Source: Azotosporobacter soli (GTDB taxonomy: Bacteria > Bacillota > Negativicutes > SG130). From it: 64,000 bases of DNA. The notes beneath the pieces are model-generated. The model saw only the letters and a program-made list of their open reading frames with translations, ran no database searches and was not told where the DNA came from. Below are positions 25,690-63,800 of this stretch, in pieces. Location of the stretch: the NCBI RefSeq assembly GCF_030542965.1, contig NZ_JAUAOA010000015.1:1-64000 (forward strand), given 5' to 3'. A program made the position numbers and the translations under genes. Each line of letters opens with the position of its first letter. Positions within the stretch are counted from its first letter, which is position 1.

Positions 25690-26526
25690 GTGAGAAGCGA
25701 TCAATGTGAAATCCTCAAAGTGTTTAACAATAATATCGTCCTCGCGGCGGCGGACGGCAAAGAACAGATTTTAATGTCGAAAGGCATCGGCTTTGGCCGC
25801 CAGAGCGGAGACCGGATCGCAGCAGGAACCGAAGTGGAGAAGATCTTTGCGATGCAGGATGCGGAAAACCATGACCGCTTTTGCAAACTGCTAAGCCAAG
25901 TCAATGATGAAACCTTTCGTATCTGCCAAAAAATCATCCGCATGATCGGTGAGCGGCTCGGCGAAGAGTTGGACGAAAACATCCACATCAATCTGGTCGA
26001 CCATATTGCGTTCATGGTCAAACGGGTCATGAACGGCGAACAGATCCATAATCCGTTCCTGACGGAGATCGAACTGCTTTATAAGACCGAATTTCAGTTG
26101 GCGGAGCAGGCTGTTCAAATGCTGCGCCAGGAGACGAAACTTACGATTCCAGACGGTGAAATCGGCTTTATTGCCATGCACATTCATTCGGCGCGCAACC
26201 AGGGGAAATTGTCACAGACCGTGAAATGCGCGTATCTGGCGAACAGCATCGTGGAACTGATCGAAGAGGAACGCGCCATAACCATTGACCGACAGTCGCT
26301 TGATTACGCGCGCTTTATCACGCATGTGCGCTTCACGGTGCAGCGTTTGACCAGCAATACGCCGATTCCCAACGATTTGCTCTCGACGATTAAGCGCAAG
26401 TATAAGACCTCATATCTTCTGGCGCGCAAGATCAGCAAGATGATCGCCTTCGAATTGGAACTGAAAGAAGTGCCGGAAGGCGAAGTCGGCTATATTGCGA
26501 TCCATATCGAAAAACTCTGCAGCTAA
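25690..26526 (+). CDS. licT: Transcription antiterminator, BglG/LicT family
   Basis: A 278-residue RNA-binding antiterminator. The N-terminal CAT domain (about 1-55, with EILKVFNNNIVLAA and KGIGFGRQSGD) binds the RAT. Two PTS-regulation domains follow, PRD1 about 65-170 and PRD2 about 172-278. Conserved histidines lie in HIAFMVKRV, GFIAMHIHSA, FITHVRFT and YIAIHIEKL, and are phosphorylated by HPr or EII. The start is GTG at 25690. It is encoded between EIIA and EIICB, 33 bases after the IIA stop, so it controls its own operon through the leader RAT. The symbol is by family; GlcT- or SacT-type names would do equally. Confidence 0.93.
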   Translation: MRSDQCEILKVFNNNIVLAAADGKEQILMSKGIGFGRQSGDRIAAGTEVEKIFAMQDAENHDRFCKLLSQVNDETFRICQKIIRMIGERLGEELDENIHINLVDHIAFMVKRVMNGEQIHNPFLTEIELLYKTEFQLAEQAVQMLRQETKLTIPDGEIGFIAMHIHSARNQGKLSQTVKCAYLANSIVELIEEERAITIDRQSLDYARFITHVRFTVQRLTSNTPIPNDLLSTIKRKYKTSYLLARKISKMIAFELELKEVPEGEVGYIAIHIEKLCS

Positions 26527-26580
26527 AGAGGTACGACCCCGGTATTCCGGGTAGATTATAAAAAACAAGGAGGTAGAACA

Positions 26581-27984
26581 ATGTCATCAAATGTAATGGG
26601 GTATATCCAAAAATTAGGCAAGGCGCTGATGACGCCGGTCGCTGTATTGCCGGCCGCCGCACTTTTGCTGCGTCTTGGCGCGCCGGACATTCTGAACTGG
26701 CCGTGGATGTTCCAGGCTGGCGATGCTATTTTCGGTAATCTGGCGGTCATCTTTGCGGTAGGCATCGCAGTAGGTCTGGCGGAAGAGAACAACGGCGTTG
26801 CCGGTCTCGCCGCTTTGGTCGGCTATTTCGTATTGACTAAAGTCGGCACCAGTTTTGACAAGACGATCAATATGGGCGTTCTCGCAGGTTTCCTCTCCGG
26901 CATGGTAGCAGGCTATTTGTATAATAAATATCGTAACATCAAGCTGCCGGATTTTCTTGGCTTCTTTGGCGGCAAACGCTTCGTGCCGATCATAACTTCG
27001 ATCTATATGCTGGTTATAGGCGTTTTGGCAGGCTACGTGTGGCCGCTGATCCAGCATGGCTTGAATACGTTCGGCAATGCGATCGCCGGTTCCGGTGCGG
27101 TCGGTGCGATGATTTTCGGCATTCTGAACCGTGCGTTGATCCCGTTCGGTTTGCATCATGTTTTGAACAGCCTCTTTTGGTTTCAGTTCGGTACGTTCAC
27201 CGATGCGGCCGGCAAGGTCGTCAACGGCGACCTGACGCGTTTCTTTGCGCATGACCCGACGGCCGGCACGTTTATGACCGGTTTCTTCCCGATTTTCATG
27301 TTTGCATTGCCGGCTGCCTGCCTGGCCATGATCACTACGGCCAGACCGGAAAAACGCAAAGCAATCACCGGCATGATGCTCGGCATCGCGTTGACCTCCT
27401 TCCTGACCGGCATCACGGAGCCGATCGAATTCACCTTCTTATTCCTCGCGCCGGGCTTATATGCTGCGCATGCGCTCCTGACGGGCCTGTCGATGTTTAT
27501 CACCGCATCGCTCGGCATGAAACTGGGCTTCGGCTTTTCCGCCGGTGCAATCGATTATGTGCTCAATTACGGCATCGCGACGAAACCGGCGCTGCTTTGG
27601 GCCGTCGGTGCGGCCTTCGCGGTCATTTACTATCTGGTCTTCGTATTCGTGATCAAGAAATTCGACCTGCCGACGCCGGGCCGCGAAACGGACAATGGCG
27701 ATGAGGACGTTGACGGCGTTACCGAACAGCAGGCCGATCTGACTGAGCGGGCGCATAATATTTTGCTGGCGCTCGGCGGCAAGGAAAACATCACGTCACT
27801 TGACGCTTGCATCACACGGTTGCGGATTGTCGTCAAGGACATGAGCCTGATTAATGAAGGCAAACTGAAACAACTCGGCGCGACCGGCGTCATGAAAATG
27901 GACGCGGTCAGTCTGCAAGTCATCGTCGGCACGGTGGCCGATCCGCTGGCTTCGTACATTAACCGCGAACGCAAACAATCCTAA
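26581..27984 (+). CDS. nagE: PTS EIICB, N-acetylglucosamine/glucose family (NagE-like)
   Basis: A 467-residue membrane permease that takes up and phosphorylates a hexose. The IIC domain (about 1-350, ~10 hydrophobic segments) shows LPDFLGFFGGKRFVPI, NRALIPFGLHHVLNSLFWFQ and GITEPIEFTFLFLAPGLY; the Glu of GITEP binds sugar. The IIB domain (about 385-467) carries the phospho-Cys in SLDACITRLRI. It is close to the E. coli NagE sequence over its whole length, minus the C-terminal IIA, which is the separate upstream gene. GlcNAc is favoured over glucose on that basis. AGGAGG precedes the ATG. It is the last gene of the RAT-controlled operon. Confidence 0.9.
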   Translation: MSSNVMGYIQKLGKALMTPVAVLPAAALLLRLGAPDILNWPWMFQAGDAIFGNLAVIFAVGIAVGLAEENNGVAGLAALVGYFVLTKVGTSFDKTINMGVLAGFLSGMVAGYLYNKYRNIKLPDFLGFFGGKRFVPIITSIYMLVIGVLAGYVWPLIQHGLNTFGNAIAGSGAVGAMIFGILNRALIPFGLHHVLNSLFWFQFGTFTDAAGKVVNGDLTRFFAHDPTAGTFMTGFFPIFMFALPAACLAMITTARPEKRKAITGMMLGIALTSFLTGITEPIEFTFLFLAPGLYAAHALLTGLSMFITASLGMKLGFGFSAGAIDYVLNYGIATKPALLWAVGAAFAVIYYLVFVFVIKKFDLPTPGRETDNGDEDVDGVTEQQADLTERAHNILLALGGKENITSLDACITRLRIVVKDMSLINEGKLKQLGATGVMKMDAVSLQVIVGTVADPLASYINRERKQS

Positions 27985-29183: not shown

Positions 29184-29229
29184 AATAAACAGCTCCCGTT
29201 GGCGATGCGGCCAACGGGAGCTGTTTATT
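29184..29229 (+). terminator. Strong hairpin after manA
   Basis: A perfect 19-bp stem (29184-29202 with 29211-29229), loop of eight. The right arm itself ends in TTTATT. It overlaps the manA stop region. Confidence 0.85.
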
Positions 29230-29330: not shown

Positions 29331-30737
29331 ATGGAGTATGATTATGATGTTGCGATTGTTGGGGGCGGTCCGGCAGGATTGAGTGTTGGAGCCGAACTGG
29401 CGAAGCTTGGCAACCGGATATTGCTCATGGAAAAAGGGAAAATTGGCGATACGGATCGCGCCTGGATTGTACCGGGATCCATTCTGGCGACCGCGGATGC
29501 GAGCGTACAGTCTTTTGCCTATAACGGGGTGCGTCGTTTTCTCGAGTACACGCCTACTTTGTCGATTCAGTGGGAAGCGGTGGCTCCTTGGGACAGTGAC
29601 GAACGTTGGAAATGCTATCCGTATATTAGACAAACGGAGTTGCTTAATCACTGGGCCGATGTTATTCGTCAGTCAAAGTCTACGGTTATTGAGAATACGG
29701 CTTATCTTGATCATATAGTGGAGGAGAATGCAGTTCGTGTGCGCGCTCAGGGCGGGCAGGAATACAGGACGCGTATGTTGCTTGATGCATCAGGATACCA
29801 TTCTTCGCTCGCGCAAAAACAGCGTATCAGTCGAGAGGGATATTTTTGGTGGTCGGTATACGGCTATGAACTGGAATTTGAAAATACGGCGCAATTGTCG
29901 CATCCAGGGACGCTCGGTGCGATGCAAGTTGGCGATTATATGCTCTGGCAGTCATTTAAGTCGAGTCCGCTTGATGCACGGGCGACGCTGTCGCAGCTCA
30001 AGCCGATTATGGAATATGAAGTACTCGATGAGAAAAAGGTTTTTGTCTTTATTTTGTTTTTTACTACAGATACTGTGGAGAAGTCATTTATCAAAAATCA
30101 CTTGGACGATTTGTTGCAGCGTGATCCGGATTTAGCTGCATTTCGTACCGGTCGCGTGGCTTGTGAACGCTTTGGCTGGTATCCGTCCGGCGGTCTGTCG
30201 CAGCAATGTGCGACAGACCGGATTGCTTTCATTGGCGATGCCGGCTGTTGGACAATTCCGGCTGGCTGGGGAATGTCATTTATTTTGCAAAACTATCGGA
30301 CCTATGCTGCTGGTTTGCATCAATTGCTGCAGGATGATGCGCTTGATCAGATAAACTTAAACCGGGCGGCAGTTTTTAATGAACGACAAAAGTACGAAAT
30401 CTGCATGGACAAAGTCGTCTTGCATTTTCTCGCTTATGCGGAGTCCGAATTAATTGACCGTTTTACGAAGAGGATGCTGGATACATTTGGCGGCGGTATG
30501 CTGGAAACGATGTTTTGCCTGCAGCTTGATGAACGTCAATCCATTGACGCCCTAAAGGCAGTGGTTCGAGAGTTCAGCATTACGGAACTGGCGGGGCTGC
30601 TTAGCCGCGAGCGCGAACCGGAATTGCTGTTGACCGTGCTGGCGGAATTTGCCGAGAGTGCGTTGATTGATGGAATCCGGCGATTGTTGGGCAAAGAAAG
30701 AGAAGCGGCGGGATTTTCTTTTACGCCGCTGCGCTAA
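29331..30737 (+). CDS. FAD-dependent oxidoreductase (lycopene-cyclase/geranylgeranyl-reductase-like)
   Basis: A 468-residue flavoprotein. The Rossmann dinucleotide-binding motif DVAIVGGGPAGLSVGAELAK is at residues 6-25, LLLDASGYHS resembles the mid-chain DATG-type motif and RIAFIGDAGCWTIPAGWGMS is the second FAD motif. The closest patterns are the lycopene cyclase and prenyl-reductase branches of the p-hydroxybenzoate-hydroxylase fold, which act on isoprenoid or lipid substrates. The substrate is not identifiable. It starts a more AT-rich run and is 9 bases ahead of an AttH/CrtC-like gene, so the two probably act in one pathway. No other carotenoid genes are nearby. Confidence 0.75.
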   Translation: MEYDYDVAIVGGGPAGLSVGAELAKLGNRILLMEKGKIGDTDRAWIVPGSILATADASVQSFAYNGVRRFLEYTPTLSIQWEAVAPWDSDERWKCYPYIRQTELLNHWADVIRQSKSTVIENTAYLDHIVEENAVRVRAQGGQEYRTRMLLDASGYHSSLAQKQRISREGYFWWSVYGYELEFENTAQLSHPGTLGAMQVGDYMLWQSFKSSPLDARATLSQLKPIMEYEVLDEKKVFVFILFFTTDTVEKSFIKNHLDDLLQRDPDLAAFRTGRVACERFGWYPSGGLSQQCATDRIAFIGDAGCWTIPAGWGMSFILQNYRTYAAGLHQLLQDDALDQINLNRAAVFNERQKYEICMDKVVLHFLAYAESELIDRFTKRMLDTFGGGMLETMFCLQLDERQSIDALKAVVREFSITELAGLLSREREPELLLTVLAEFAESALIDGIRRLLGKEREAAGFSFTPLR

Positions 30738-30746
30738 GGAGACGCG

Positions 30747-31829
30747 ATGAAAAAAATATTGGGACGTCTGTATCATGCTCTTGTTTATCGCTATTCGCTG
30801 CTGCGGCCGCTTCACTATTTATTTCGCTCCCGTAAACGTAAGCCAATCAGGTTGCCTGAAGCGGATGGGTTTCTTAGAGAGCAGGATGTGCAGTGGTGGT
30901 ATTGGACAGGCCATCTCGAGTCAGAGACGGGACGGAAATATGGTTTTGAAATTGTATTTTTTGCTTTTAATAGCTGGATTTTCTTTAAGAATCAACTGGC
31001 TCAAGCGGCTATTACCGATATAAGCGAAGCTTCATTCCAATACCGGGAAGAAGTTGAATTTTGCAGCTTGCCGAAACGATTGGCAGGCCGCTTTGCGATG
31101 CAAGCCGAAGAAGACGGCAGGGCAGTCATTGTTGCAAACGGCGGCGGCGGACGGGATCGCCTATCCTGTGAAGTTGGGAAATACGAGCTGCAACTGCAAC
31201 TAACGGATAGGAAGCAGCCGGTGATGCATTATGGCGGTGAGGCTCACGACTATTCGTTCGGCGGCTATACCTATTATTATGCACGCGAGCGGATGCAGGT
31301 TCAGGGAACCATTCGAATTGACGGGCAGGAATATGCCGTAACGGGCGAAAGCTGGTTTGACCGTCAATATGGTGACTTATATGAGAGCATTTTTAAAGGA
31401 TGGCAGTGGTTTGCGTTAAGCCTCAACGACGGACGCGCCATTATGCTTTATGACTTTTTGGGGACGGCTTATCAGCAGGAACGAATTGGTTCGATCACTT
31501 CGCTGCAAGCGACGCAGGAATTGGGTATGAATGACTTTTTCGTAACGATATTAGACTCGTGGCAGTGTCCGGAGAGCCGGATTCGCTTTCCTGCTCGCTG
31601 GCGACTTAATGTCAAGGGGGAGATCTTTTCTGTTACGCCGTTGGTTCAGGATCAAAGTCTGCTGGCGCGACATGGATGGTGGATTGGCCCGGAATATTGG
31701 GAAGGGGCGTGTAGCGTCACAAACGCGGATGGTAGTTTAGTCGGTCAGGCCTATGTTGAACTGAATGGTTTTGGTCATAAACTGATCAGCCTCGATCTGG
31801 AAGGTGAAAATTTGGATTTTGCGATATAA
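30747..31829 (+). CDS. AttH/CrtC-like lipocalin-fold protein (carotenoid 1,2-hydratase family)
   Basis: A 360-residue protein of the CrtC/AttH superfamily, two lipocalin-like beta-barrels. Diagnostic stretches are VQWWYWTGHLESETGRKYGF near the N-terminus, SWFDRQYGD in the middle, which corresponds to the conserved AWMDHEWG region, and FALSLNDGRAIMLYDF. CrtC adds water to a carotenoid double bond; AttH-type relatives have no settled function. The N-terminus is basic (MKKILGRLYHALVYRYSLL) and may attach the protein to a membrane; no cleavable signal is clear. It is coupled to the FAD enzyme upstream and 41 bases before the kinase gene. Confidence 0.75.
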   Translation: MKKILGRLYHALVYRYSLLRPLHYLFRSRKRKPIRLPEADGFLREQDVQWWYWTGHLESETGRKYGFEIVFFAFNSWIFFKNQLAQAAITDISEASFQYREEVEFCSLPKRLAGRFAMQAEEDGRAVIVANGGGGRDRLSCEVGKYELQLQLTDRKQPVMHYGGEAHDYSFGGYTYYYARERMQVQGTIRIDGQEYAVTGESWFDRQYGDLYESIFKGWQWFALSLNDGRAIMLYDFLGTAYQQERIGSITSLQATQELGMNDFFVTILDSWQCPESRIRFPARWRLNVKGEIFSVTPLVQDQSLLARHGWWIGPEYWEGACSVTNADGSLVGQAYVELNGFGHKLISLDLEGENLDFAI

Positions 31830-31870
31830 ACAGAGTCGCTTTCAGTTAGGCGGAAAGGACGGGGTTGAGT

Positions 31871-34800
31871 ATGCTGGCACGCGAATATGAGCTGGGAGAA
31901 AAAATGTATGAAAGTACGACCAGCATTCTATATCGGGCAACAACGTTAAAAGACCGGAAAGCGGTCGTTCTAAAAATGAGCCATGAAGAGTACCCTGGTC
32001 CAGAAAAAGAGGCTCAATTGCGTTATGAATATGAACTGACAAAAGAAGTCAGCGGTCCTAGCGTAATAAAAGCATTGGACTTAATTGAAGAAAATGGTAC
32101 GAACATCATTGTGTATGAAGACTTTGGCGGTATGGCGTTAAATGATTTAGATTGTTCAAAATGGCGCATGCGGCAAAAAATAACCCTGTTTCTCAAAGTG
32201 ATTGATGGGTTAAGTACGGTTCACAGCAAGGCTGTTATTCATAAAGACTTAAATCCGGCCAATATTGTTTTGAATCAGTCAACTGGTCAGGTAAAACTTA
32301 TCGATTTTGGCAACGCAACGCGGTTGACAAGAGAAAATATTGTAAATGTGCCGCGCCCGAGAATTGAAGGGACGTTGGCGTACATGGCGCCGGAGCAAAC
32401 CGGACGGATGAACCGCATCGTTGATTATCGCGCCGATTATTATGCGCTTGGCGCGACCTTTTATGAAATAATGAGCAATCAATTTCTGTTTCCACACGCC
32501 CAGGATTCGGTAGAATTGATGCATTGCCTGCTGGCCAAGGAACCGAAGCCTTTGACGGAGCTAAATGAAAAAATTCCGCCTATGCTGTCGCGCATTGTAA
32601 TGAAGTTGCTGGCTAAAAATGCAGAGGATCGCTATCAAAGTTTGTACGGCGTCAAAGCAGATTTGGAAAATTGTCTGGATCAATTGGAAAATAAGGGCAG
32701 AATCGATGATTTTATGCTTGGCCAGAAGGATGATCTTGGCAAGTTTGAAATTCCGCAACGCCTCTATGGGCGCAAGCAGGAATTGACGGAATTGATTAGC
32801 GGTTATGAAAAGGTATACCGTGGCGGCTTTGAAATGCTGTTAATAACAGGACCTTCCGGCGTCGGCAAAAGTCTGCTTGTCAGCGAATTGCAAAAAGCGG
32901 TTATACAGGGGCGCGGCTATTTCGTAACGGGAAAATATGAAAAACACAAACATGAAATTCCTTATAGCGCCTTGCTTGACGCGTTTCGCGATTTGGTGCG
33001 CGTTGTGCTGACGGAGCCGGAAGAGAAAATTGCCCAGCTCAAAACACGTTTAAAGGAAAAATTGGCTGCGAATGGACGAATTATTACAGATGTGGTGCCG
33101 GAAGTAAAATTTATTATTGGCGAGCAGGCGGCGGTTGAGGAGTTGACGCCTGTGGAAAATAAAAATCGTTTTCATTTTGTTTTTCGTGAATTCATCAGCG
33201 CGTTTGTCGGATCCCGGCAGACACTGGTGATCTTTCTTGATGATCTGCAGTGGGTGGATGATGCGTCGATTGAACTTTTGCGTACGCTGGCCTTGACGAA
33301 GGAGCACGGCTATTTGTACCTGATCGGCGCTTACCGAAAAGACGGCATAAATGAACTGCATCCGTTGTCCGTTGCGTTAGAAGAAATGGAAAAAAGAAAT
33401 GGCAGAGGCATCAAAACCATTCATTTAATGCCGCTTGGCGTTTCGGCCATTTCGGAACTGCTGGCCGATGCATTGAAGAGTGATGTGAAAAATGTGCAGG
33501 CGCTGGCCGAGTTGATTCACCATAAAACGGACGGCGTACCGTTTTTTATCAATGAGATATTATTGCAGTTGGAGAAACAACATTTAATTTGGCTTGATTA
33601 CCAGGCCATGTGTTGGAAATGGGATTTGGCAGGCATCAAAAATGCAGGAATTTCCGATAGCATGGTGGGCCTTCTTAGCAAGCGAATCAACAGTCAGGAT
33701 GAAAATACGCAGCGTGTGCTCGGAATGGCGGCGTTGGTCGGAAATCGTTTTGATTTTACATTGTTGTCGGAACTTGATCCAAATCGGCAGCATCTGATAG
33801 CAGCTGCTCTTTGGAATGCATTGCAGGAAGGCTTTATCCAGCCGCTCGATCCGGCTTACAAGTATATTCAAGATGCAAAGGTTGATTCTGTATTCCGTTT
33901 TTTTCATGACAGCATTCAACAAGCAGCGCAAAGCTTACTTAGTGAAACGCAACGTATGGAACTCCATTTGCGAATTGGCCGTATTTTGCGTGAACAGGAA
34001 AAGACGGTGGGCGGTGAAAGCAGGATTTTCGATATGGTCAGGCATTTGAACGCGGCGCAACCGTTAATAAGCGATCCGGCCGAACTGCGCGAATTAGGAG
34101 CTTTAAACTATTGGGCCGGAAAAAGAGCTAAGAAATCCTCTGCTTTTAGCACTTCGTTGGTTCATTTTCACCGTGCGTTGGAACTCTTGGGAACAGATGC
34201 TTGGCAAAAAAATCCGGCGTTGGCGCTCGACGTATATGTGCAGGCTGCGACAGTTGCCTATTCTTGCGGCGCATATGCGATGATGCAGACTTACAGCGAT
34301 AGCGTATTTGTCAATTGTCAGGATCCTTTTGTTCGCGTATCGATTTATGAAATTCAAATTCGTGCGCTGCTGGCGAGTGGTAAAGCGGGCGAAGGCGTCG
34401 AATTGGCACGTACAGCGTTGTCGATGTTGGGCGTTAATTTTCCCAGAAAGATAGCAAAACCATATTTGTTGCTGCAACTGACGACGTCAAAATTTTTTCT
34501 CCAACTTCGTGGTTTAGAATCGCTAGAGGAACTGCCGGCACTGCGCGATCAAAGACAAGAAGCGATTATGCGGATTTTGGCGGCAGTATCGTCATCGGCC
34601 TACCTGGCAGCACCGGAATTATTTGTATTGATGGTATTGAAACAAGTGGAAATCACCGTTAAATACGGCAAGTCCTCTCGCAGTCCGTTCGCATATTGCC
34701 TATACGGCGTCATTGTCGGAGGCGTTTTGGGCGACCTTGGGACGGGATATAAATTTGCTAAATTCGGTCTGGAGGCGATTGAGAAGGGGAATTATCAGGA

Positions 34801-36841
34801 AGCCGTTGGTAAGACGATGCTCGTCGGCAATCTGTTTGCTGCGCACTGGAAAGATCCGCTGAAAAAGGTGATTGCAGAATTTATGCGCGCCTATCGTGTT
34901 GCGATGGCTGACGGAGATTTAGAATATGCGGCATGGGCGTTAATGGCGCATGGCTTTCACTCCTTTTTTTCCGGTGCGCCGCTTGCTGACGTTGAGGCGG
35001 ACTTGTTGGCTGCCTCGGAAAAAATAAAAAGCGAACTGTGCCAGGAAACGCAATATGCCTATACGCGTTCTTTTGCGCAATTGGTCGGAAACTTACGTCG
35101 CGCCGATAACCTGGAAGGACAGGATGAAGCAGCGCAGCTGATGGAGTATCAGCGCAAAAATGACAGTAACGGGCTTTATTACACCTATAGCAATAAAATG
35201 TTGGAACAATTATTTTTGGGGCAACAGAAAGAAGCGCTTGCGTCTATGCGTATGGCGAAGCTGTATCTGGAAAGTGTGTTGTCGACGATCAATCATCCTG
35301 TATTTTATTATTATAGTACGCTGATTTACCTGATCGAGTATGACAGTTTATCTGATCAGGAACGAAATGAAATTGGCAAACAAATGAAACGCCTGAAGGT
35401 GTGGGCCAAAACGGCGCCACATACGCATGGCTATAAATATCGTTTTCTTCAAGCCGAAATGTATGCTCATGAACGAAACTATGCGGAAGCTTCTACGGCC
35501 TTTGATGAAGCGATTGAAGCGGCAAAGAAAAATGAATTTTTGCAGGATGCTGCATTGGCGAATGAGCGAGCGGCAGAGTTTTATCAAAAACAAGACAAAG
35601 AAACGATTGCACGTTCATATCGTATGGCAGCGTATCACCTATATCGTCAGTGGGGAGCGGAAAGTAAAGCTAAGCGACTGCGCGATCAGTATTTGTACTT
35701 ATGGATGAAACCAGAAGAAAGCATCGCTGCCTTAAACAGTAAAGATTCACTTCGTTTGACGGCGCCGCAAGCCTTTGATTGGGCCAGTATTGTAAAAATT
35801 GCGCAAATGTTATCCAGTGAAATGAATTATGAACAGCTAATCGTAAAAATGATGAGCATTGTAATGGAGAATGCCGGAGCGCAACGCGGCGTCTTTCTTG
35901 CGCAAGTGGGACTTGAACTAAAAGTGGAAGGGCGGGCGGATATGGCAGGCTCGCAATGTCGGATTTTCCCGGTCGTTGAAGCTGAGGCGGGCGAGGATGC
36001 ATATTCGATCGGCATTGTTAATTATGTGCTGAGGACGGAAGAAAGTCTTGTGATTCAAAATGCGCTGACAGATCGCTTGTTTGCCAATGATCCATATGTA
36101 CTAAGTCGGGAACCGATATCGATTCTTTGTATGCCGGTTTGTACGCAGAAAAAGATAATCGGCGTTTTGTATTTGGAAAATAATTTAATCAAAGGAGCTT
36201 TTACGCCGGAGCGAATTGAAATTTTACAAGTCGTAGCTTCCCAATCAGCAATTTCACTGGAAAATATTAATGTATATCAACAACTGGAAGAAAAAGTGCA
36301 GGAGCGGACTTGTCTGCTCAATGAGCGAACGCGCGAACTGGAGAACGCTTATGAAGAAGTTAAATATATCAGTATGCATGACGCGTTAACGGGTTTGTAC
36401 AACCGTGCTTATTTTGAACAGGAAATGCAGCGTTTAGGGAAACGACGCCAAGGGGGAACGGGCGTACTTGTTTGCGATATGGACGGTCTCAAGCGAATTA
36501 ATGATTCGCAGGGGCACGAAGCTGGGGATAAGATGCTGCAGGCGGCAGCTGACGTATTGAGAAAGACCTTTCGTCCGTGTGATATGGTAGCGCGAATCGG
36601 CGGCGATGAATTTGCGGTGCTGGTTCCTGATGCGGACAGGCTGTTGATGGAGCGCTTAAAAGAGCGTATTCAAACTGCTGTCGAGCAGTACAACGAAAAG
36701 GCAGGTGCAACAGATTTGAGCATTTCGGTTGGTTTGTCGTTGCAGGGAAATGCGCAAGCGACGATGCTGGATACGTTCAAAGAAGCGGATGAGCGAATGT
36801 ATCAGGAGAAGGTACTAAAACCCAATGCGATGTGTCGCTGA
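31871..36841 (+). CDS. Multidomain Ser/Thr kinase-AAA ATPase-GAF-GGDEF signalling protein
   Basis: A 1656-residue cytoplasmic signal integrator. Order: a Hanks-type kinase (about 1-270) with HKDLNPAN at 124-131, IDFGNA at about 144-149 and YMAPEQTG; its glycine loop is degenerate. An AAA_16/STAND-type ATPase follows, with Walker A GPSGVGKS at about 327-334 and Walker B VIFLDDLQWVDD. Then comes a long helical TPR-like region (about 680-1290), a GAF domain (about 1310-1450), a coiled coil and a diguanylate cyclase with intact GGDEF (1577-1581) and an RPCD inhibition site five residues before it. The ATG at 31871 was chosen over a TTG six bases earlier. It may switch the two upstream enzyme genes or their products via phosphorylation and c-di-GMP; this is inference. 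Confidence 0.88.
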   Translation: MLAREYELGEKMYESTTSILYRATTLKDRKAVVLKMSHEEYPGPEKEAQLRYEYELTKEVSGPSVIKALDLIEENGTNIIVYEDFGGMALNDLDCSKWRMRQKITLFLKVIDGLSTVHSKAVIHKDLNPANIVLNQSTGQVKLIDFGNATRLTRENIVNVPRPRIEGTLAYMAPEQTGRMNRIVDYRADYYALGATFYEIMSNQFLFPHAQDSVELMHCLLAKEPKPLTELNEKIPPMLSRIVMKLLAKNAEDRYQSLYGVKADLENCLDQLENKGRIDDFMLGQKDDLGKFEIPQRLYGRKQELTELISGYEKVYRGGFEMLLITGPSGVGKSLLVSELQKAVIQGRGYFVTGKYEKHKHEIPYSALLDAFRDLVRVVLTEPEEKIAQLKTRLKEKLAANGRIITDVVPEVKFIIGEQAAVEELTPVENKNRFHFVFREFISAFVGSRQTLVIFLDDLQWVDDASIELLRTLALTKEHGYLYLIGAYRKDGINELHPLSVALEEMEKRNGRGIKTIHLMPLGVSAISELLADALKSDVKNVQALAELIHHKTDGVPFFINEILLQLEKQHLIWLDYQAMCWKWDLAGIKNAGISDSMVGLLSKRINSQDENTQRVLGMAALVGNRFDFTLLSELDPNRQHLIAAALWNALQEGFIQPLDPAYKYIQDAKVDSVFRFFHDSIQQAAQSLLSETQRMELHLRIGRILREQEKTVGGESRIFDMVRHLNAAQPLISDPAELRELGALNYWAGKRAKKSSAFSTSLVHFHRALELLGTDAWQKNPALALDVYVQAATVAYSCGAYAMMQTYSDSVFVNCQDPFVRVSIYEIQIRALLASGKAGEGVELARTALSMLGVNFPRKIAKPYLLLQLTTSKFFLQLRGLESLEELPALRDQRQEAIMRILAAVSSSAYLAAPELFVLMVLKQVEITVKYGKSSRSPFAYCLYGVIVGGVLGDLGTGYKFAKFGLEAIEKGNYQEAVGKTMLVGNLFAAHWKDPLKKVIAEFMRAYRVAMADGDLEYAAWALMAHGFHSFFSGAPLADVEADLLAASEKIKSELCQETQYAYTRSFAQLVGNLRRADNLEGQDEAAQLMEYQRKNDSNGLYYTYSNKMLEQLFLGQQKEALASMRMAKLYLESVLSTINHPVFYYYSTLIYLIEYDSLSDQERNEIGKQMKRLKVWAKTAPHTHGYKYRFLQAEMYAHERNYAEASTAFDEAIEAAKKNEFLQDAALANERAAEFYQKQDKETIARSYRMAAYHLYRQWGAESKAKRLRDQYLYLWMKPEESIAALNSKDSLRLTAPQAFDWASIVKIAQMLSSEMNYEQLIVKMMSIVMENAGAQRGVFLAQVGLELKVEGRADMAGSQCRIFPVVEAEAGEDAYSIGIVNYVLRTEESLVIQNALTDRLFANDPYVLSREPISILCMPVCTQKKIIGVLYLENNLIKGAFTPERIEILQVVASQSAISLENINVYQQLEEKVQERTCLLNERTRELENAYEEVKYISMHDALTGLYNRAYFEQEMQRLGKRRQGGTGVLVCDMDGLKRINDSQGHEAGDKMLQAAADVLRKTFRPCDMVARIGGDEFAVLVPDADRLLMERLKERIQTAVEQYNEKAGATDLSISVGLSLQGNAQATMLDTFKEADERMYQEKVLKPNAMCR

Positions 36842-36852
36842 AGAGCGACAGG

Positions 36853-36890
36853 AAAGGCAAGGCTTAAGTAAAAAAGTCTTGTCTTTTTTT
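36853..36890 (+). terminator. Intrinsic terminator after the kinase-cyclase gene
   Basis: Stem AAGGCAAGGCTT with AAGTCTTGTCTT (two G-T pairs), followed by seven T. It closes the three-gene run. Confidence 0.8.
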
Positions 36891-43817: not shown

Positions 43818-45098
43818 ATGCTACGTTTGAAAAAATACCAGGGAAAAAATCACTGGTGGGCATATATGTATGGTGTAGGACTCCTTGCGATTGCGATCGG
43901 CTGGGTGTCGATCAGTTCAACGATGGCAGAAAAAACAATTGCGTTGGCGATGGTTTTCCTGGTCGGAATGGCCGGAGCCTTGCGCAATTTAGCGCTGGAG
44001 CGCAATCGTTTTTACCGGGCCAGCATCACCGATCCGTTAACGGGGCTGCATACGTTCACGCATACGATCATGCTGGGACAGGAACTGTTGGCGCAGGGCA
44101 ATGATTCCATGCTGGTACTGGTCAATCTGGACAATTTTAAGAATGTGAATGCCACCTATGGTCATTTTATCGGCAATCGGATTCTGGTGCAATTTGCACA
44201 GCGACTGCGCGAACTGTGGGGCGCGAAGGCGATCATCGGTCGTTTGGGCGGCGACGAATTTATCGCCATCCTGCCTGATCTCGGCAAACAACGCGCGGCG
44301 GTCACGCAACAGATCGAAGAACTCAAGGGTCAGCGTTATACGGCCGACCCCGATATTTCACCGGTGCAAGTTGAATTTTCTTATGGTTTGGCGCAAGCGG
44401 ATCCGGAGCGGCAGGGCAATGTCGAAGAACTGGTCGATTTTGCGGACAAAGAGATGTACGCTTATAAATTATCGCGCAAGACAAAGCAGACGACGTGCCA
44501 GTTTAACGCGGAGATGCCGGAAGACTACCGCGATATTCTGACCGTGTTGTCGCAAAAAGACATGTACACGTTTCTGCACTCCTTGTACGTGGCGCAGTAT
44601 GGCGTATTGCTGGCCCGAAAAATCGGCTTGGACGAGGAAATGGTGGAAAATATCCGTCTGGCAGGCTGGCTGCATGATATCGGCAAGATCGCAGTGCCGA
44701 ATGAAATTCTGCGTAAACCGGGAAAACTGAGTCAGGTAGAGTATCAGTCGATACAAAAGCATGTAAACTACGGTTTGAATCTTTTACATACCTTTTCGAT
44801 GCCGACCGCTGTCTATAATGCGATCGGTCAGCACCATGAACGCTATGACGGCAAAGGCTATCCGAATCAGCTGAAAGGCGACGACATTTCGCTCAGCGGG
44901 CGGATTCTCGCGATCGTCGACGCCTATTCCGCGATGACGATCAAGCGCGTCTATCGTCGTTATCAATTTTCGACCGATGATGCGCTGGCTGAATTGATGC
45001 GCGGCAGCGAAACGCAATTCGACGCTGCGCTCGTCAATCAGTTTGCACAAGTGCTGCGCGACGAAAGCCGCGAAATAGAAGAGAGGCAAATTAGTTAA
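43818..45098 (+). CDS. Membrane-anchored GGDEF/HD-GYP c-di-GMP protein
   Basis: A 426-residue protein with two N-terminal membrane segments (about 14-35 and 38-58), then a GGDEF domain (about 65-225) and an HD-GYP domain (about 240-415). The diguanylate cyclase signature RLGGDEF is intact; an RxxD inhibitory site is not obvious before it. The phosphodiesterase has HDIGKIAVPNEIL and HHERYDGKGYP intact. The protein could therefore both make and break c-di-GMP, or one domain may be regulatory. The ATG follows ATAGGAG. It is transcribed alone and ends at a hairpin. Confidence 0.9.
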   Translation: MLRLKKYQGKNHWWAYMYGVGLLAIAIGWVSISSTMAEKTIALAMVFLVGMAGALRNLALERNRFYRASITDPLTGLHTFTHTIMLGQELLAQGNDSMLVLVNLDNFKNVNATYGHFIGNRILVQFAQRLRELWGAKAIIGRLGGDEFIAILPDLGKQRAAVTQQIEELKGQRYTADPDISPVQVEFSYGLAQADPERQGNVEELVDFADKEMYAYKLSRKTKQTTCQFNAEMPEDYRDILTVLSQKDMYTFLHSLYVAQYGVLLARKIGLDEEMVENIRLAGWLHDIGKIAVPNEILRKPGKLSQVEYQSIQKHVNYGLNLLHTFSMPTAVYNAIGQHHERYDGKGYPNQLKGDDISLSGRILAIVDAYSAMTIKRVYRRYQFSTDDALAELMRGSETQFDAALVNQFAQVLRDESREIEERQIS

Positions 45099-45101
45099 AC
45101 G

Positions 45102-45139
45102 AAGAAGCCACCAAGGCCATACAGCCGGGGTGGCTTCTT
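45102..45139 (+). terminator. Hairpin after the GGDEF/HD-GYP gene
   Basis: An 11-bp stem (AAGAAGCCACC with GGTGGCTTCTT) with a 16-base loop; only a weak T-run follows. It lies between the stop and the next gene's site. Confidence 0.6.
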
Positions 45140-45177
45140 GAGCATAGCTATGCAGCCCGGTCAGGAGGGATGAAAGA

Positions 45178-48102
45178 GTGCTGACGGCGAGAATGTTGGG
45201 CACGGCGGCGATCAACTGGAACGGAAAGCGGGTCGTATTCCCGTTTGCCAAGATGGAAGCGCTGCTTTATTATCTGTTGGTGAAAAAGAGTTGCAGTCGT
45301 GCGGAACTGGCGGCGCTTCTCTGGAGCGAGATGGACGATGAAGCGGCCAAGAAAAATTTGCGCAATACCTTGTATCTGCTGAAAAAAATGTTCGGCGAAA
45401 GCTTGATTCAGACGCCGTCCCGTTCCCTGCTGCTCCTTGATCCGACGCACAGCGGCGCAAGCGATGTTGCCTGCCTGCTCGAGGGGGAAGCGGAGGAAGA
45501 AGCGGCGTACGGCGGTGAATTTCTTGCCGGATTTTATTGCAAGGATGCGGTGCTGTTTGAAGAATGGGTGAATGAAAAGCGGCAGGAGCTGCGCGAGGTT
45601 TATTTGTCGCGTCTCACACGCCGCGGCGTTGCACTGTTGAAAGAAAAGAGATACGAACAGGCGAAGAGTTGTTTGAAGCGATTGGTTGCGATCGACGAAT
45701 ACAATGAAAGCGCCTATCGCTCGCTGATGCGCATCTATAGCCAGGCTGGCGCGGATAACAAAGTCATTGCGACATACCGGCAGCTTGAGAATAAGCTGCA
45801 AAGCGAACTGGGCATCCGGCCGGATGCGAAAACGAAAGAGATTGCGCAGCAGGCGCTAAGGCGCAAGGAAAATAACGCAGACGCTGAAAAAAGCAGTCAA
45901 ACGGAATTGTTTTTCGGGCGCGAAGCCGAACGTAGCCGCCTTTTTGACTGGCTGGGTCAGTCGAAAACGGGCGATGCTTTGCCGCGTTTTCTGGTGTTGC
46001 ATGGTGAGCAGGGCGTGGGAAAAAGCGCGCTGGTGCGGAACGTATTCGAGTCGTTATCAGGCGAGGATGCGCTGATTTTGCGCACCCAGTGCTATCAGGT
46101 AGAAGAATTGTATCCGTATAAAGCGTGGAGCGCCATTTTCAGCCAGGTTATGCTGGAACTTAAGCGCCGGGAAATCGAAGCGCCCGATTCCTGGCGACAG
46201 GTGATCTCGTATCTCTTTCCGGCGATTGCGCTTGAGCGGAGTGCGGAAGATTTTTCGCACCAAATGGATATTCACGCGCTGCAGGTCACGATGGCGCAGG
46301 AAGTGATGCATGGCTTACTGCAACTGTTGGCCGAACATTGCCGATTGCTGCTCGTGATCGAAGACATTCAGTGGCTGGATCAGCAAGGCTATAACGTATT
46401 GCAGCAGGTTCTGCGCAGCAGTGGCTCTCACATCGACTGCCTGGCTACTTGCCGCAGCGAAGCGCTGAGCGCTTTTGCGCAACGCTTTGGCGAACGGCAG
46501 GCGCAGCAGGTGATCGAGTGGTTGCCTGTCGAACGTTTCAGCCGCAGCGAAGTCGAGCGTTTTGCCGCATTGGCTTTGGATACGGCAAGTCTTGATCCGC
46601 TATTGCAGGAAAAACTTTATGAATATACCGAGGGCAATGCGCTGTTCCTGGTAGAGTGCTTCAAGTTGCTGCAACTGGGCGAAGGCGTCGGGCGTCTTTC
46701 GCCCCGATTGCACAGCGTGTTGACGGAGCGCGTCGGACAATTGTCCGAAAAGGCGCGCAAAGTGTTGGCCGCGGCATCGGTTTTTTTCCGTGACGCCAGT
46801 TATGAGGAGCTGACGGCAGTCGCGGGTCTGAATGAATTTGAACTGGTCGAAGCGATTGAAGAGATCCAAAAGAAAAAATTACTGGAAGAAGGGATACAGC
46901 CGGGACGCAGTCACCTGACGTATCGCTTCTGTCATGGCTGTATCCGTGAATTTGTTTATGGACAATTATCGGCGTCGCGGCAGAAAATGCTGCATCACCG
47001 CATCGGCCTGCATCTGGAGGAACGGATGCAGGCGTGTGATGGCGCGCGCGAATTGTTATATGCGGCGATCCATCATTTTAGTCAGGCGGGCGAAGAGGCG
47101 AAGGCGATCGAATATCGGATCCGTCTGGCCGAACGCTATTCCTGTCCGCACTATGAAATGTTTCCCGAGTTGAGTGCCGCGGTGATGGTCGGCAGCGACA
47201 GCGGTTATGACCGGCGGCAAATTACCGAGCATCTGCAGCAATTGGAAGAGTTGATCGCGGCTGCGGCCAAACGGGCGCTTGGCGAAGAACGCATCAGCCG
47301 TTATCAGGCGGCGTATTTGGAAATGTCGGGGCGCTACCACATTTGGCTGGGCGAACATCGTCAGGGCTTGCGGGCGATTCATCGTTTGCTGCGTTTGGCA
47401 GCGCTGCGCGAATATCAGGAGTATCGGATCAAAGGCTATCAACAGGTCGTGTACTGTGCGATTCAGACGCGGCGCGACCGGATGATCGAGGCGTTCGCCG
47501 ATAAATTGATCCGCGCGGCGGCCGATGCCGGACGTGAAACCGTGCTTGGCGCAGCTTTGCGTTTCAAAGGAATCGCGTATGCGCTGCGCGGCGAAGACGA
47601 ACTGGCCGAACAGAGTTACCGTCAATCGATCGCGCTCTTTAAACGTCTGAACAGCCGCGGTAACGGCTATGCGGCCCATATTGCCGCTGCCTATAATTAC
47701 ATCGGTGATCTGCGCGGCGGCGCGGGGGAGTGGGTTGAGGCGCTGCGCCATTACGAAACTGCGATCCGTCTGCATGGACAGGCGACCGTTGGCGAAGGCT
47801 TGACGATCTTTTACATCAATGCCGGGTATGCGGCTTTTGAATTGGGCCGATACGATGCAGCTAAAAGCCATCTGCAGCAGGCGCTCGTCGTCGGTGAACA
47901 GTTCGGCGGACAGATGGGCTATTGGTGCCAGCGCGGCCATTGTACGCTAAATTGCGTGCTGGCGCGGATTGCCTGCCGTGCAGGCGATATGGCCGCCGCG
48001 CGGGAACACCTGAATAGGGCCGAAGAATTCCTCGTGAAATATCACGATGCCAATCAGTCTGCCATCATTGAACGCACGCGACGCGAAATGAAAATGCTAT
48101 AA
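45178..48102 (+). CDS. SARP/BTAD-type transcription regulator with STAND ATPase and TPR
   Basis: A 974-residue regulator. The N-terminus (about 1-85) is a winged-helix DNA-binding domain (GKRVVFPFAKMEALLYYLLV). A bacterial transcriptional activation domain follows (about 95-220, with CLKRLVAIDEYNESAYRSLM), the pair found in SARP and AfsR-type activators. Then a STAND-like ATPase (about 245-560) has Walker A GEQGVGKS and Walker B LLVIEDIQWLD. TPR-like repeats fill about 700-974. The start is GTG at 45178 after AGGAGGG. It precedes the hut operon on the same strand, separated by a terminator, and may control it; the trigger is unknown. Confidence 0.88.
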   Translation: MLTARMLGTAAINWNGKRVVFPFAKMEALLYYLLVKKSCSRAELAALLWSEMDDEAAKKNLRNTLYLLKKMFGESLIQTPSRSLLLLDPTHSGASDVACLLEGEAEEEAAYGGEFLAGFYCKDAVLFEEWVNEKRQELREVYLSRLTRRGVALLKEKRYEQAKSCLKRLVAIDEYNESAYRSLMRIYSQAGADNKVIATYRQLENKLQSELGIRPDAKTKEIAQQALRRKENNADAEKSSQTELFFGREAERSRLFDWLGQSKTGDALPRFLVLHGEQGVGKSALVRNVFESLSGEDALILRTQCYQVEELYPYKAWSAIFSQVMLELKRREIEAPDSWRQVISYLFPAIALERSAEDFSHQMDIHALQVTMAQEVMHGLLQLLAEHCRLLLVIEDIQWLDQQGYNVLQQVLRSSGSHIDCLATCRSEALSAFAQRFGERQAQQVIEWLPVERFSRSEVERFAALALDTASLDPLLQEKLYEYTEGNALFLVECFKLLQLGEGVGRLSPRLHSVLTERVGQLSEKARKVLAAASVFFRDASYEELTAVAGLNEFELVEAIEEIQKKKLLEEGIQPGRSHLTYRFCHGCIREFVYGQLSASRQKMLHHRIGLHLEERMQACDGARELLYAAIHHFSQAGEEAKAIEYRIRLAERYSCPHYEMFPELSAAVMVGSDSGYDRRQITEHLQQLEELIAAAAKRALGEERISRYQAAYLEMSGRYHIWLGEHRQGLRAIHRLLRLAALREYQEYRIKGYQQVVYCAIQTRRDRMIEAFADKLIRAAADAGRETVLGAALRFKGIAYALRGEDELAEQSYRQSIALFKRLNSRGNGYAAHIAAAYNYIGDLRGGAGEWVEALRHYETAIRLHGQATVGEGLTIFYINAGYAAFELGRYDAAKSHLQQALVVGEQFGGQMGYWCQRGHCTLNCVLARIACRAGDMAAAREHLNRAEEFLVKYHDANQSAIIERTRREMKML

Positions 48103-59615: not shown

Positions 59616-60074
59616 ATGGAGATAACGTTTCGAAAGGCGCAGGAAGAGGATGCCGAAATACTGACCCGCATATCCTTTGCTGCGAAGCGGCATTGGAGCT
59701 ACCCGGAAGAATGTTTTGCCATATGGAAGGATGAACTGACCATTACTCCGGCTTATATCAGGAAAAACACGGTTTTGATTGCCGAGGCTGACGGCGAGAC
59801 GGTGGCGTATGCATCGGTCGTGAGCGAAGGCGATGAAAGCTGTCTGCAACATGTCTTTGTGCTGCCGCTCTGCATCGGCAAGGGTATCGGCTCTAAATTG
59901 GTAACGGAAATGAAAAAGATCTGCGCTGCACAAGCGATTGCATGCCTGACGATTTTTTCTGATCCGCATGCGCAAGGCTTTTACGACAAAATAGGTGCGC
60001 GTTACGTGGATGAATTCCCGTCTAATATTCCGGGGCGAAACGTGGCGATGTATGAATTGGCAATAGGAAATTAA
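59616..60074 (+). CDS. GNAT-family N-acetyltransferase
   Basis: A 152-residue acetyl-CoA-dependent acetyltransferase. ITFRKAQEEDAEILTRISF opens the fold and LQHVFVLPLCIGKGIGSKLV is the acetyl-CoA-binding motif A (Q/RxxGxG/A-like, here CIGKGIGSKL). The substrate is unknown. The ATG at 59616 follows AAGGAG by ten bases; the frame's upstream ATG at 59586 has no site. It is followed 24 bases on by a small conserved-looking protein, probably in the same transcript. Confidence 0.85.
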   Translation: MEITFRKAQEEDAEILTRISFAAKRHWSYPEECFAIWKDELTITPAYIRKNTVLIAEADGETVAYASVVSEGDESCLQHVFVLPLCIGKGIGSKLVTEMKKICAAQAIACLTIFSDPHAQGFYDKIGARYVDEFPSNIPGRNVAMYELAIGN

Positions 60075-60098
60075 TCTGAAGGATAGACGGAGGAAACG

Positions 60099-60275
60099 AT
60101 GAAAAACATTGAGATGACGAGCGAAGGCGATATTCTGACAATCAAGATTGACCTGAGCCAACGCTTCGGCAAGTCGAGCAGCGGCAAGACGACAATCGTT
60201 GCCAGCACAGAAGGCAATCAAGCCGTACCGGGACATGAGGAAATCAAAATTGGTTTGAATGTGTATACGAAATGA
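60099..60275 (+). CDS. Conserved-looking small protein, 58 residues
   Basis: A short ORF with a strong GGAGGA site eight bases before ATG. The protein is MKNIEMTSEGDILTIKIDLS followed by RFGKSSSGKTTIVASTEGNQ, and ends with a beta-rich tail including EEIKIGLNVYTK. No membrane segment. I recall near-identical small proteins annotated as hypothetical in Clostridia and Negativicutes, but this memory needs a search. Its function is unknown. The Ser/Gly/Lys-rich SSSGKTT resembles a P-loop by chance but lacks the preceding GxxxxG. It ends at its own terminator. Confidence 0.75.
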   Translation: MKNIEMTSEGDILTIKIDLSQRFGKSSSGKTTIVASTEGNQAVPGHEEIKIGLNVYTK

Positions 60276-60284
60276 AGCGAAACG

Positions 60285-60317
60285 CCGGGGCTATCCTAAG
60301 GGATGTCCTGGTTTTTT
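60285..60317 (+). terminator. Intrinsic terminator after the small protein
   Basis: CCGGGGCTATCC pairs with GGATGTCCTGG (one bulge, two G-T pairs) around TAAG, followed by six T. Confidence 0.75.
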
Positions 60318-60686
60318 GTTTGGAAAAAGAGAAAAATTGTCGTTTTTATTTTAAAACGCGGAGAGTCTGCATAACGGAAAAGGGAGTACGGAGTCATGCC
60401 TCCCGCCTAGCGGATTAATTTACTAGAAATAAGGTAGCCGCAATGGTAGAATACTATTGTGAAAATTAATATCAAAATAGGCAATTAGATCAACTGAAAC
60501 TAGGTATCATTTTAGACAGTATTAAGATAATTAGATACTTATGTTTGCGGAGGCTAATCGTGTATGGCCATCACAAATAATGTGATGGCTTTTTCGTTAT
60601 ATGTCTGAAAAGGTCAGGTTAGGTATGCTGATTAAAAATGGAACCGGCATACAGCAAGAGGCAGCGAGATGGCGAGGTGACTACTA
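60318..60686 (+). other. AT-rich gap holding an isolated terminator
   Basis: No gene is evident in these ~370 bases. At 60567-60594 GCCATCAC pairs with GTGATGGC and is followed by TTTTT, a good intrinsic terminator about 95 bases before the start of the sensor kinase. With nothing encoded upstream of it after 60317, it may end a small RNA or act as a leader attenuator for the kinase gene. The region 60400-60560 shows AGCGGATTAATTTACTAG and other repeats of CTAG but no fold I can name. Confidence 0.5.
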
Positions 60687-63600
60687 TTGAAATTTCTGGG
60701 TAAAAGCATCAAATGGCAGCTGACTGTTCCGATAACAATTATAGTCAGTAGTGTCTTTCTCGTTGCTGTTGGGATAACGTTTGTCGGCGCAAGGTCTTTA
60801 ATTATCCAGTATGCCTGTGATAATGCCATGAGTAAAGTTCAGTACTTTGCCGATAGAATCGACGGTGACTTAAAGGTAAGCGCCGATGCCGTTAAAACGC
60901 AAGCCAATACCATTAAGACTATTTATGGACAGCCAAACCATAAAGAATTAGTTAAAGATATAGTATTTAACTGGGGTAATAGCAGTGATTACTATCAGAG
61001 CGTGTGGTTTGCAGGTGACAGCCAATACCAAAAACAAGGTTTTATTGTCTATTGGTTTGAGAAATCCGGTAGAAATATAAGATGGTGGGAATTTGATAAA
61101 TACGATTGGGAGAAAAGAGAAGCAATACTGACAAGATATTTTGTTGAAGATGGCAAAATAAAAGCGGTTGACATATCAGACTATGAGTTTAAAGACTTTT
61201 CTGAGTTGAAGTACGCTGACGATCCCCGATATGTTGCTTACCAAGGCCCGAAGAAGAAAGGCGGAATATCTTTTTTAGATCCTTATTTAGATCCGGTTGT
61301 AAATATCCCGACGGTTACAATAGCTACTCCGGTTTACGATGAACGGAAAAACCTGATTGGCGTTGTCGGCATGGATATGAACATAACCGGAATACAACAA
61401 ATTACAAACAATGTTAAAATAGGGGAAGAGAGCCAAATCATCTTAATAACCAGTGATGGTTCAATAGTAGATCATCCCGACCAACAGTTGGTAATGAAAA
61501 AGAACATCTTTACGGACTATAATGATCAATTGGCGCCATTTTTTAAAAAAGCCGTTGCGGATGATCATTTGCTGCAGGAAGTAAATAATAACGGCAACAA
61601 AGAATACTTTTTTTCGATGCACATCCCTTCTGCCCAGTGGACTTTGATTATGATGGTTCCTGCCCGTGAAATATTGGGCGAACTGGAATTGTTGATGCTG
61701 ATTGTAAGCGGCGGGATGCTTTTAATCATCATACTTTTGGCTGTGGGCATTTTTCGCTGGATAACGGCCAGAATCAACCAGCCGCTAACAAAGCTTGTCG
61801 AAGGAACGGAGCAGATATCAGCCGGGCGCTTTGAGCACCATATTGAAATCAATGCCCAGAACGAATTGGACATTTTAGCGGAAAAATTTAATTGGATGTC
61901 TGATAATATCCGGCACGCATATAACGAGATGGAAAACCGCGTAATCGAAAGAACCAAAGATATTGTCTCCGCCAATGAACGGTTACAGGAAGCTAAAGTA
62001 TTGGCCGAAAGCGCGGCCCAGGCAAAAAGTGAATTTTTGGCAAATATGAGCCATGAAATCCGTACACCGCTCAATGCGATTATTGGTTTCAACAGCTTAG
62101 CGCTAAAAACAGAACTTTCGAATGAGCAAAGAGATTATATGGACAAGAGCGCCATCGCGGCGAAATCACTGCTGGACATTATCAATCAGATTCTTGACTT
62201 TTCCAAAATAGAGGCTGGCCGACTGGAACTGGAAACAATCGATTTTCAGTTGACTGACGTAGTAGCTGACATTACTGACATGATCTCAGTTAAGGCGGCC
62301 GAAAAGGGAATGGAACTGATTAGCTCCGTTGCTGCGGATGTGCCGTGCGCCCTGGTAGGCGATCGGTTGCGACTTGTCCAGGTGCTGCTTAATCTTGTCG
62401 ATAATGCTGTCAAGTTTTCCAATGATGGACATATTGTACTTAAAATTGAACTGGAGGACAAAGAGGAAACCAGCTGCATATTGCGGTTTAGCGTTGAAGA
62501 TTCCGGGATTGGCATGACGGAAGAACAAATAAGTAAACTCTTTATCGCTTTCTCCCAAGCGGATAATTCTGTGACCAGAAAATTCGGCGGAACCGGCCTA
62601 GGTCTGACTATTTCCAAGCGCCTAGTGGAAATGTTAGGCGGAACGATTGCGGTAAAAAGCCAACTAGGACAGGGCAGCACCTTTTCTTTTACCGCAAAAT
62701 TTGGCCGGCAAGCGCAGATGCAAAAGCCGCAGCTTGCGACTAAATTCCAGGAAGAGTTGCTGGGGCTAAAGAAGAGGTTGGCGGGAGCGAAAGTGCTTCT
62801 GACGGAAGACAATATCTTCAATCAGCAAGTAGCCGCAGCGCTGTTAAGAGGTGCGGGTCTCAACGTAGATATCGCCAACAACGGCAGCGAAGCGGTGACT
62901 GCGGTGATGCGAAACGACTATGACCTGATACTGATGGATGTGCAGATGCCGGTGATGGGCGGTTATGAGGCGACAAGCATGATCCGGTTAAGAGGGAAGG
63001 CGGATTTGCCGATAATTGCTATGACCGCTCATGCCATGCCGGGAACCAGAGAGGAATGTCTGGCGGCGGGAATGGACGACTATATCAGTAAACCTCTGGA
63101 ACCGGAAATTTTATCTGCCGTGCTGTCGCGTTGGATAAAGCACCGGAATAATACGGTTTGGGAGATAGTCGTAGGGGAGCAGTCGGGAACGGCCGATTTT
63201 CCTGCGACGCTTCCAGGCATTGATGTGGAGGCTGGCCTTAGCAGGATAAACGGCAATGCAAAACTGTTCAGCGAACTGCTCATCGGGTTTGCGAAAAAGT
63301 ACAATAGCGCACCAGAGAAAATAAGAAAGGCTCTCATGGAAAAAGACGCGGAAGAAGCGCTGCAGCTTGTTCATACCCTCAAAGGGTTGGCAGGTAACTT
63401 AGCGGCTACCCAAATATATGATGCAGCCGTTAGATTGGAAGAGGCGTTGGTAAAAGGAGCAGAGTGCGCCGGTTGGCTGCAAGAATTGGAAGCAGCATTG
63501 GCAGAGTTGGCGGACTTAACGGAAAGGCTGGTACAGGTAAAACCCGAGGTAGCAGCGGAAAAAACGCTTGAAAATACGAGGGAAGCCGATCATGTGGTGC

Positions 63601-63800
63601 GGGAACTGGCGCGTCTTATCGAAGCAGGCGACATTGACGCCCTAATATCGCTGGAAAGTTTGAAGAAATGCCTGGACACTGTTGGTTTAGAAGAGGAACT
63701 GCAATTGCTGGAGGATAGTGTGAGAAATTTTGACTTCGAAAGCGCCCGCCCGCCGCTGGAGAGAATCGCCAGGGCGCGGAATATCTTGTTGGCTGACTAG
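60687..63800 (+). CDS. Hybrid sensor histidine kinase (Cache-HAMP-HisKA-HATPase-REC-Hpt)
   Basis: A 1037-residue membrane hybrid kinase. TM1 (about 8-32), extracellular dCache domain (about 35-345, with [20 protein letters not shown]), TM2 (about 346-370), HAMP, coiled coil, HisKA with phospho-His in [12 protein letters not shown], HATPase with [13 protein letters not shown] and [13 protein letters not shown]. The REC domain follows with phospho-Asp in [15 protein letters not shown], then a C-terminal Hpt with phospho-His in [14 protein letters not shown]. So it holds a full internal phosphorelay. Start is TTG at 60687, seven bases after GAGGTG. The next gene is a response regulator, the likely relay target. 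The stimulus is unknown. Confidence 0.9.

Follow-up and report, generated by a model that had tools for sequence, protein, structure and literature searches.

A predicted three-gene operon of Azotosporobacter soli that combines a putative FAD oxidoreductase, an AttH-type double-lipocalin protein and a kinase–GGDEF regulator

To our knowledge, AttH proteins are widespread and have no assigned activity. The AttH family (PF17186/PF07143) includes NE1406 of Nitrosomonas (2ICH), and CrtC belongs to the same superfamily. The chemical capability of the fold is shown by RgCrtC, which hydrates C12-C20 terpenes without a cofactor (PMC12402844). Four residues of RgCrtC are sensitive to alanine substitution, namely His239, Trp241, Tyr266 and Asp268 (PMC4717167). 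The Asp and a W-x-W motif serve protonation and cation stabilisation, respectively (PMC4717167, PMC12402844). The GGR/lycopene cyclase superfamily (TIGR02032, PF05834, TIGR01790) consists of flavoproteins with an FAD-binding N-terminal half. The HstK-type dual kinases consist of a Ser/Thr kinase, a GAF domain and a histidine kinase (PMC2176072).

Proteins that resemble each of these systems are encoded side by side in the window, which is the whole stretch of 64,000 nucleotides that was analysed (positions 1 to 64,000 of contig NZ_JAUAOA010000015.1). The features of the unit are as follows.

29184..29229, no strand assigned: perfect 20-bp hairpin (20 pairs, loop 6), likely a terminator, that stands between the unit and the manA-like gene preceding it
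29331..30737, + strand: gene 1, GR2-type FAD oxidoreductase, 468 aa, with GGGPAG (residue 11), DASG (152) and the second FAD motif IGDAG (301)
30747..31829, + strand: gene 2, AttH/CrtC-type double-lipocalin protein, 360 aa, with Y174/Y176...W203-x-D205...W219-x-W221
31871..36841, + strand: gene 3, Ser/Thr kinase–AAA_16 ATPase–TPR-like–GAF–GGDEF regulator, 1656 aa, with the GGDEF motif and the I-site RPCD
36851..36890, + strand: intrinsic terminator closing the unit, 15-bp hairpin with a U tail, MFE -20.2 kcal/mol, z -5.0

The three genes are co-oriented on the + strand and hairpins occur on both sides of the unit. The gap between genes 1 and 2 is 9 bases and the gap between genes 2 and 3 is 41 bases when counted from the ATG at 31871. 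These coordinates and gaps reproduce the original prediction, as does the length of 1656 aa from that ATG; an alternative TTG start at 31865 gives 1658 aa. Its placement of a terminator only at the end of the unit also agrees with the U-tailed hairpin at 36851-36890 and with both intergenic gaps, from which terminator-like hairpins are absent. Shuffled sequence yields almost no stems of at least 10 bp as background for the hairpin at 29184..29229. Because one hairpin follows the manA-like gene and a strong U-tailed hairpin stands at the end, genes 1–3 are predicted from the sequence to form one self-contained operon. A TauE-family gene starts at about 36954, downstream of the terminator. At 25690-27984, a BglG/LicT-type antiterminator (CAT_RBD + PRD) lies directly 5' of an N-acetylglucosamine-type PTS IIBC gene, which is followed by a manA-like gene. 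A perfect 12-bp inverted repeat with a 6-base loop (CGGTCTGTCGCA...TGCGACAGACCG) is located at 30191-30220 within the flavoprotein coding sequence, and its half-sites are found nowhere else in the window.

We read the unit as a probably acquired operon, with an enzyme pair restricted to this lineage, in which a two-protein pathway would act on a hydrophobic molecule and a sensor would make c-di-GMP. The probability that we give to this reading is roughly 0.4.

Gene 2 is clearly an AttH-type double-lipocalin protein, as judged from its domains. Both lipocalin domains score far over the Pfam cut-offs, namely the CrtC N-terminal lipocalin PF07143 (2e-28, 100.5 bits, cut-off 22.5) and Lipocalin_9 PF17186 (8e-25, 87.9 bits, cut-off 26.2). 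The sole solved relative found is NE1406 (2ICH), which is matched over residues 32-344 with an E of 2e-29. The carotenoid-hydratase/AttH fold that had been predicted for this gene is thus upheld. Gene 2 shares full-length double-lipocalin homology and the Y-x-Y, W-x-D-(R/H) and W-x-W signature with the AttH family. Several AttH relatives carry hydrophobic, leader-like N-termini, whereas the N-terminus of gene 2 is basic and only moderately amphipathic, with no signal peptide evident on inspection by eye. Its product would be cytosolic or membrane-peripheral. The AttH relatives elsewhere are solitary or occur with ABC/FtsX genes. The inspected plasmid relatives adjoin an ABC ATPase/FtsX permease, whereas gene 2 adjoins the flavoprotein and the kinase; this association is a context feature and not a criterion for AttH membership.

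In an alignment with genuine CrtC sequences, taken from two photosynthesis gene clusters, gene 2 has D205 at the position of the acid Asp268 of RgCrtC and W219-x-W221 at that of W283/W285. The positions of His239, Trp241 and Tyr266 are occupied by Y174, Y176 and W203. AttH proteins encoded in the plasmid collection exhibit the same residue pattern as gene 2 relative to CrtC. Gene 2 is therefore assigned to AttH and is not a proven hydratase, because three of the four essential CrtC residues are replaced as in AttH proteins. It differs from CrtC at these three residues and in its host, which has no carotenoid pathway. The same replacements would suit a non-catalytic carrier or chaperone that brings a lipid or quinone to the flavoprotein as the sole chemist, and so would the lipocalin-like cavity of 2ICH, its predicted weak peripheral membrane association and its genome links to transporters (PMC2954199). 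However, gene 2 retains the acid Asp and both Trp residues, and we consider a carrier role somewhat unlikely.

The family scans of gene 1 match mainly the N-terminal FAD-binding part, and only generic FAD/lycopene-cyclase profiles are matched. PF05834 scores 31.4 bits (cut-off 23.4) and covers residues 6-185 only. TIGR01790 (lycopene cyclase) scores 38.7 bits and TIGR02032 (geranylgeranyl reductase) scores 50.3 bits with its best stretch at residues 5-169, and both are far below their NCBIfam cut-offs (209.5 and 158.8, respectively). Residues 170-468 match no PDB chain even at E 10. Gene 1 was aligned with profiles of seven CrtY proteins, of four LCYB/LCYE/CrtL-type cyclases and of a GGR-type set of six rows. 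Three of the LCY sequences in the profile score at least 479 bits against TIGR01790, which validates them. The GGR-type profile matches residues 1-164 with an hhalign probability of about 97%, where one of its six rows (L009) is a wrong short frame. The LCY profile (96%) is co-linear over residues 4-345, including the E of a FLEET-type motif at E250. The CrtY-type lycopene cyclase alone is a weak candidate (39% profile probability), and for a flavin halogenase, which was also considered, PF04820 scores below its cut-off. The C-terminal part alone does not score above 300 shuffles for any set, lycopene-cyclase or GGR. Single-sequence AlphaFold models of both enzymes are unusable (pLDDT 34 and 36).

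On this profile evidence, gene 1 belongs to the broad GGR/lycopene-cyclase/monooxygenase superfamily, with which it shares the FAD-binding N-terminal half and the GDAG-type second FAD motif. It is predicted to bind FAD via two conserved motifs. Any finer class within the superfamily is unproven because the C-terminal half scores like shuffled sequence. The N-terminal half resembles the lycopene-cyclase/prenyl-reductase-like flavoenzyme of the earlier description, whereas the C-terminal half matches nothing searched. The co-linearity of the lycopene-cyclase profile to residue 345 with E250 would agree with a flavoprotein that forms a secondary metabolite by cyclisation together with a lipocalin-barrel cyclase. 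This is comparable to Diels-Alderase pathways with lipocalin-fold enzymes, since lipocalin/AttH-like folds are pericyclases in the reviewed pathways (PMC8159843, PMC9095873). Such a pathway is distinctly improbable, as the C-terminal half of the alignment has no statistical support and no scaffold-making gene (PKS, terpene synthase) is present among the window genes scanned.

The source genome is 3.78 Mb and 98.5% complete. Neither phytoene/squalene synthase (PF00494) nor squalene-hopene cyclase (PF13249) is matched genome-wide, with control genomes positive for PF00494, and two PF00348 polyprenyl synthases are present. Because these synthase and cyclase families have no match, the organism is unlikely to carry out carotenoid, squalene or hopanoid chemistry. 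The lack of a nearby phytoene synthase that the original prediction recorded holds for the whole genome; the pigment modification module that it proposed is unlikely, and a carotenoid operon was rejected.

In the preferred pathway reading, the flavoprotein would bind FAD and modify the substrate, which it would reduce, oxidise or cyclise with the help of the flavin. The AttH protein is apparently located in the cytoplasm and may be membrane-peripheral; its barrels would enclose the substrate or the product, and D205 may protonate a double bond while W219/W221 may stabilise the cation. The likeliest substrates would be linear prenyl or quinone lipids because polyprenyl synthases are present and the carotenoid/squalene synthase family is absent. 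The sequence itself shows the order of the genes, the terminators, the domains and the conserved motifs; the substrate, the reaction and the functional link between both enzymes we infer from the fold, the motifs and the adjacency of the genes in a single genome. With an apparently cytosolic AttH protein encoded beside a flavoenzyme in a carotenoid-free genome, the pair would offer a simple two-gene system for probing the function of the AttH fold.

Gene 3 encodes Pkinase, AAA_16, GAF and GGDEF domains that are all strong and over cut-off. The kinase catalytic motifs, Walker A, GGDEF and the RxxD inhibitory site are intact, which confirms the predicted 1656-residue kinase-ATPase-GAF-GGDEF regulator. 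It is predicted to be a c-di-GMP-making sensor. Its chassis resembles that of cyanobacterial dual kinases (PMC2176072), as both exhibit an N-terminal kinase, then GAF, then a C-terminal signalling output; the output of HstK-type kinases is a histidine kinase, whereas that of gene 3 is a diguanylate cyclase. The kinase-to-GAF chassis is found in five other genomes of the class and in a second copy in this genome (27-34% identity). The outputs on this chassis (L025, L026, L027, L028 and L029) are GGDEF, PAS-GGDEF, LuxR-type HTH and HisKA-HATPase, and no output was detected in one relative that is cut by a contig end. Gene 3 is thus a further example of one sensory chassis with different outputs. 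No flavoprotein/AttH enzymes occur in the neighbourhoods of the six kinase relatives, some of which are on short contigs. A conserved regulator–enzyme pairing was therefore rejected, since members of the kinase family are encoded in other genomes with no such enzymes beside them. As an independent sensor, the giant regulator would raise c-di-GMP and would share its expression with the enzymes. Its control over the flavoprotein/AttH chemistry is speculative. It is a long shot that the flavoprotein founds an unrecognised family, marked by its unmatched C-terminal half, and, with an apparently cytosolic AttH protein, modifies a non-carotenoid isoprenoid/quinone under the direct control of the kinase/c-di-GMP sensor transcribed with it.

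No match to the C-terminal half of the flavoprotein was obtained in 381 genomes of the class, in a 220-genome phylum sample, in AttH-positive genomes or in 72,556 plasmids. A pattern scan of 85,000 genomes, which is sensitive to close relatives only, found just Paenibacillus proteins that share the first 35 residues. No relatives were found in viral contigs and phage records, and none of the AttH relatives inspected has such a flavoprotein as a neighbour. Empty results of this kind are weak evidence when a domain evolves fast. The related genomes compared share only the class with the source genome, and the genome search covered one phylum; the flavoenzyme–AttH pair may occur in other phyla. 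PF07143 proteins occur in only two other genomes of the 381 and are of a clearly different subtype. AttH-type proteins at L031 5931-6944 and L032 6807-7808, from another family of the class, are each near a divergent TetR-like regulator. In the searches made, the pair turned up in no second genome, which is the outcome that the original prediction had named as refuting it, and a conserved module is therefore not shown. The flavoprotein–AttH functional link is likewise based on adjacency in one genome because no second genome carries the pair. The parts of the unit are members of known superfamilies, and their combination was found nowhere else searched.

The GC3 of genes 1, 2 and 3 is 0.510, 0.490 and 0.467, compared with 0.626 (sd 0.051) for the other window genes, and the codon usage of the unit agrees poorly with that of the neighbouring genes. 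The segment is hence AT-richer than its neighbours, as had been noted. Its proposed consistency with transfer is sustained only as a suggestion because the sensor kinase gene at 60.7-63.8 kb deviates as strongly. This gene encodes a hybrid histidine kinase of 1037 aa with Cache and HAMP domains, its codon usage deviates at least as much as that of the unit, and the stretch at 60001-63800 is AT-rich with GC down to 0.405. Acquisition is also favoured because, among the 381 class genomes, the flavoprotein C-terminal half is confined to this genome and PF07143 is rare. The unit was probably acquired by this lineage, as composition and distribution both agree with this. The enzyme pair could have entered by transfer in front of a regulator that was already resident and with which it shares no function, as the regulator family in five other class genomes and in the second copy here is never near such enzymes. 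Such incidental co-location is improbable, since low GC3 (0.47-0.51) is common to all three genes and genes 2 and 3 have no terminator-like hairpin between them.

Another regulator is located further downstream in the window. At 43818-48102, a BTAD/AAA_16/TPR regulator adjoins a GGDEF-HD protein. Downstream of it, at about 48.3-57.3 kb, a histidine-degradation set consists of an arginase-family enzyme, urocanase, an amidohydrolase and an aromatic amino acid lyase.
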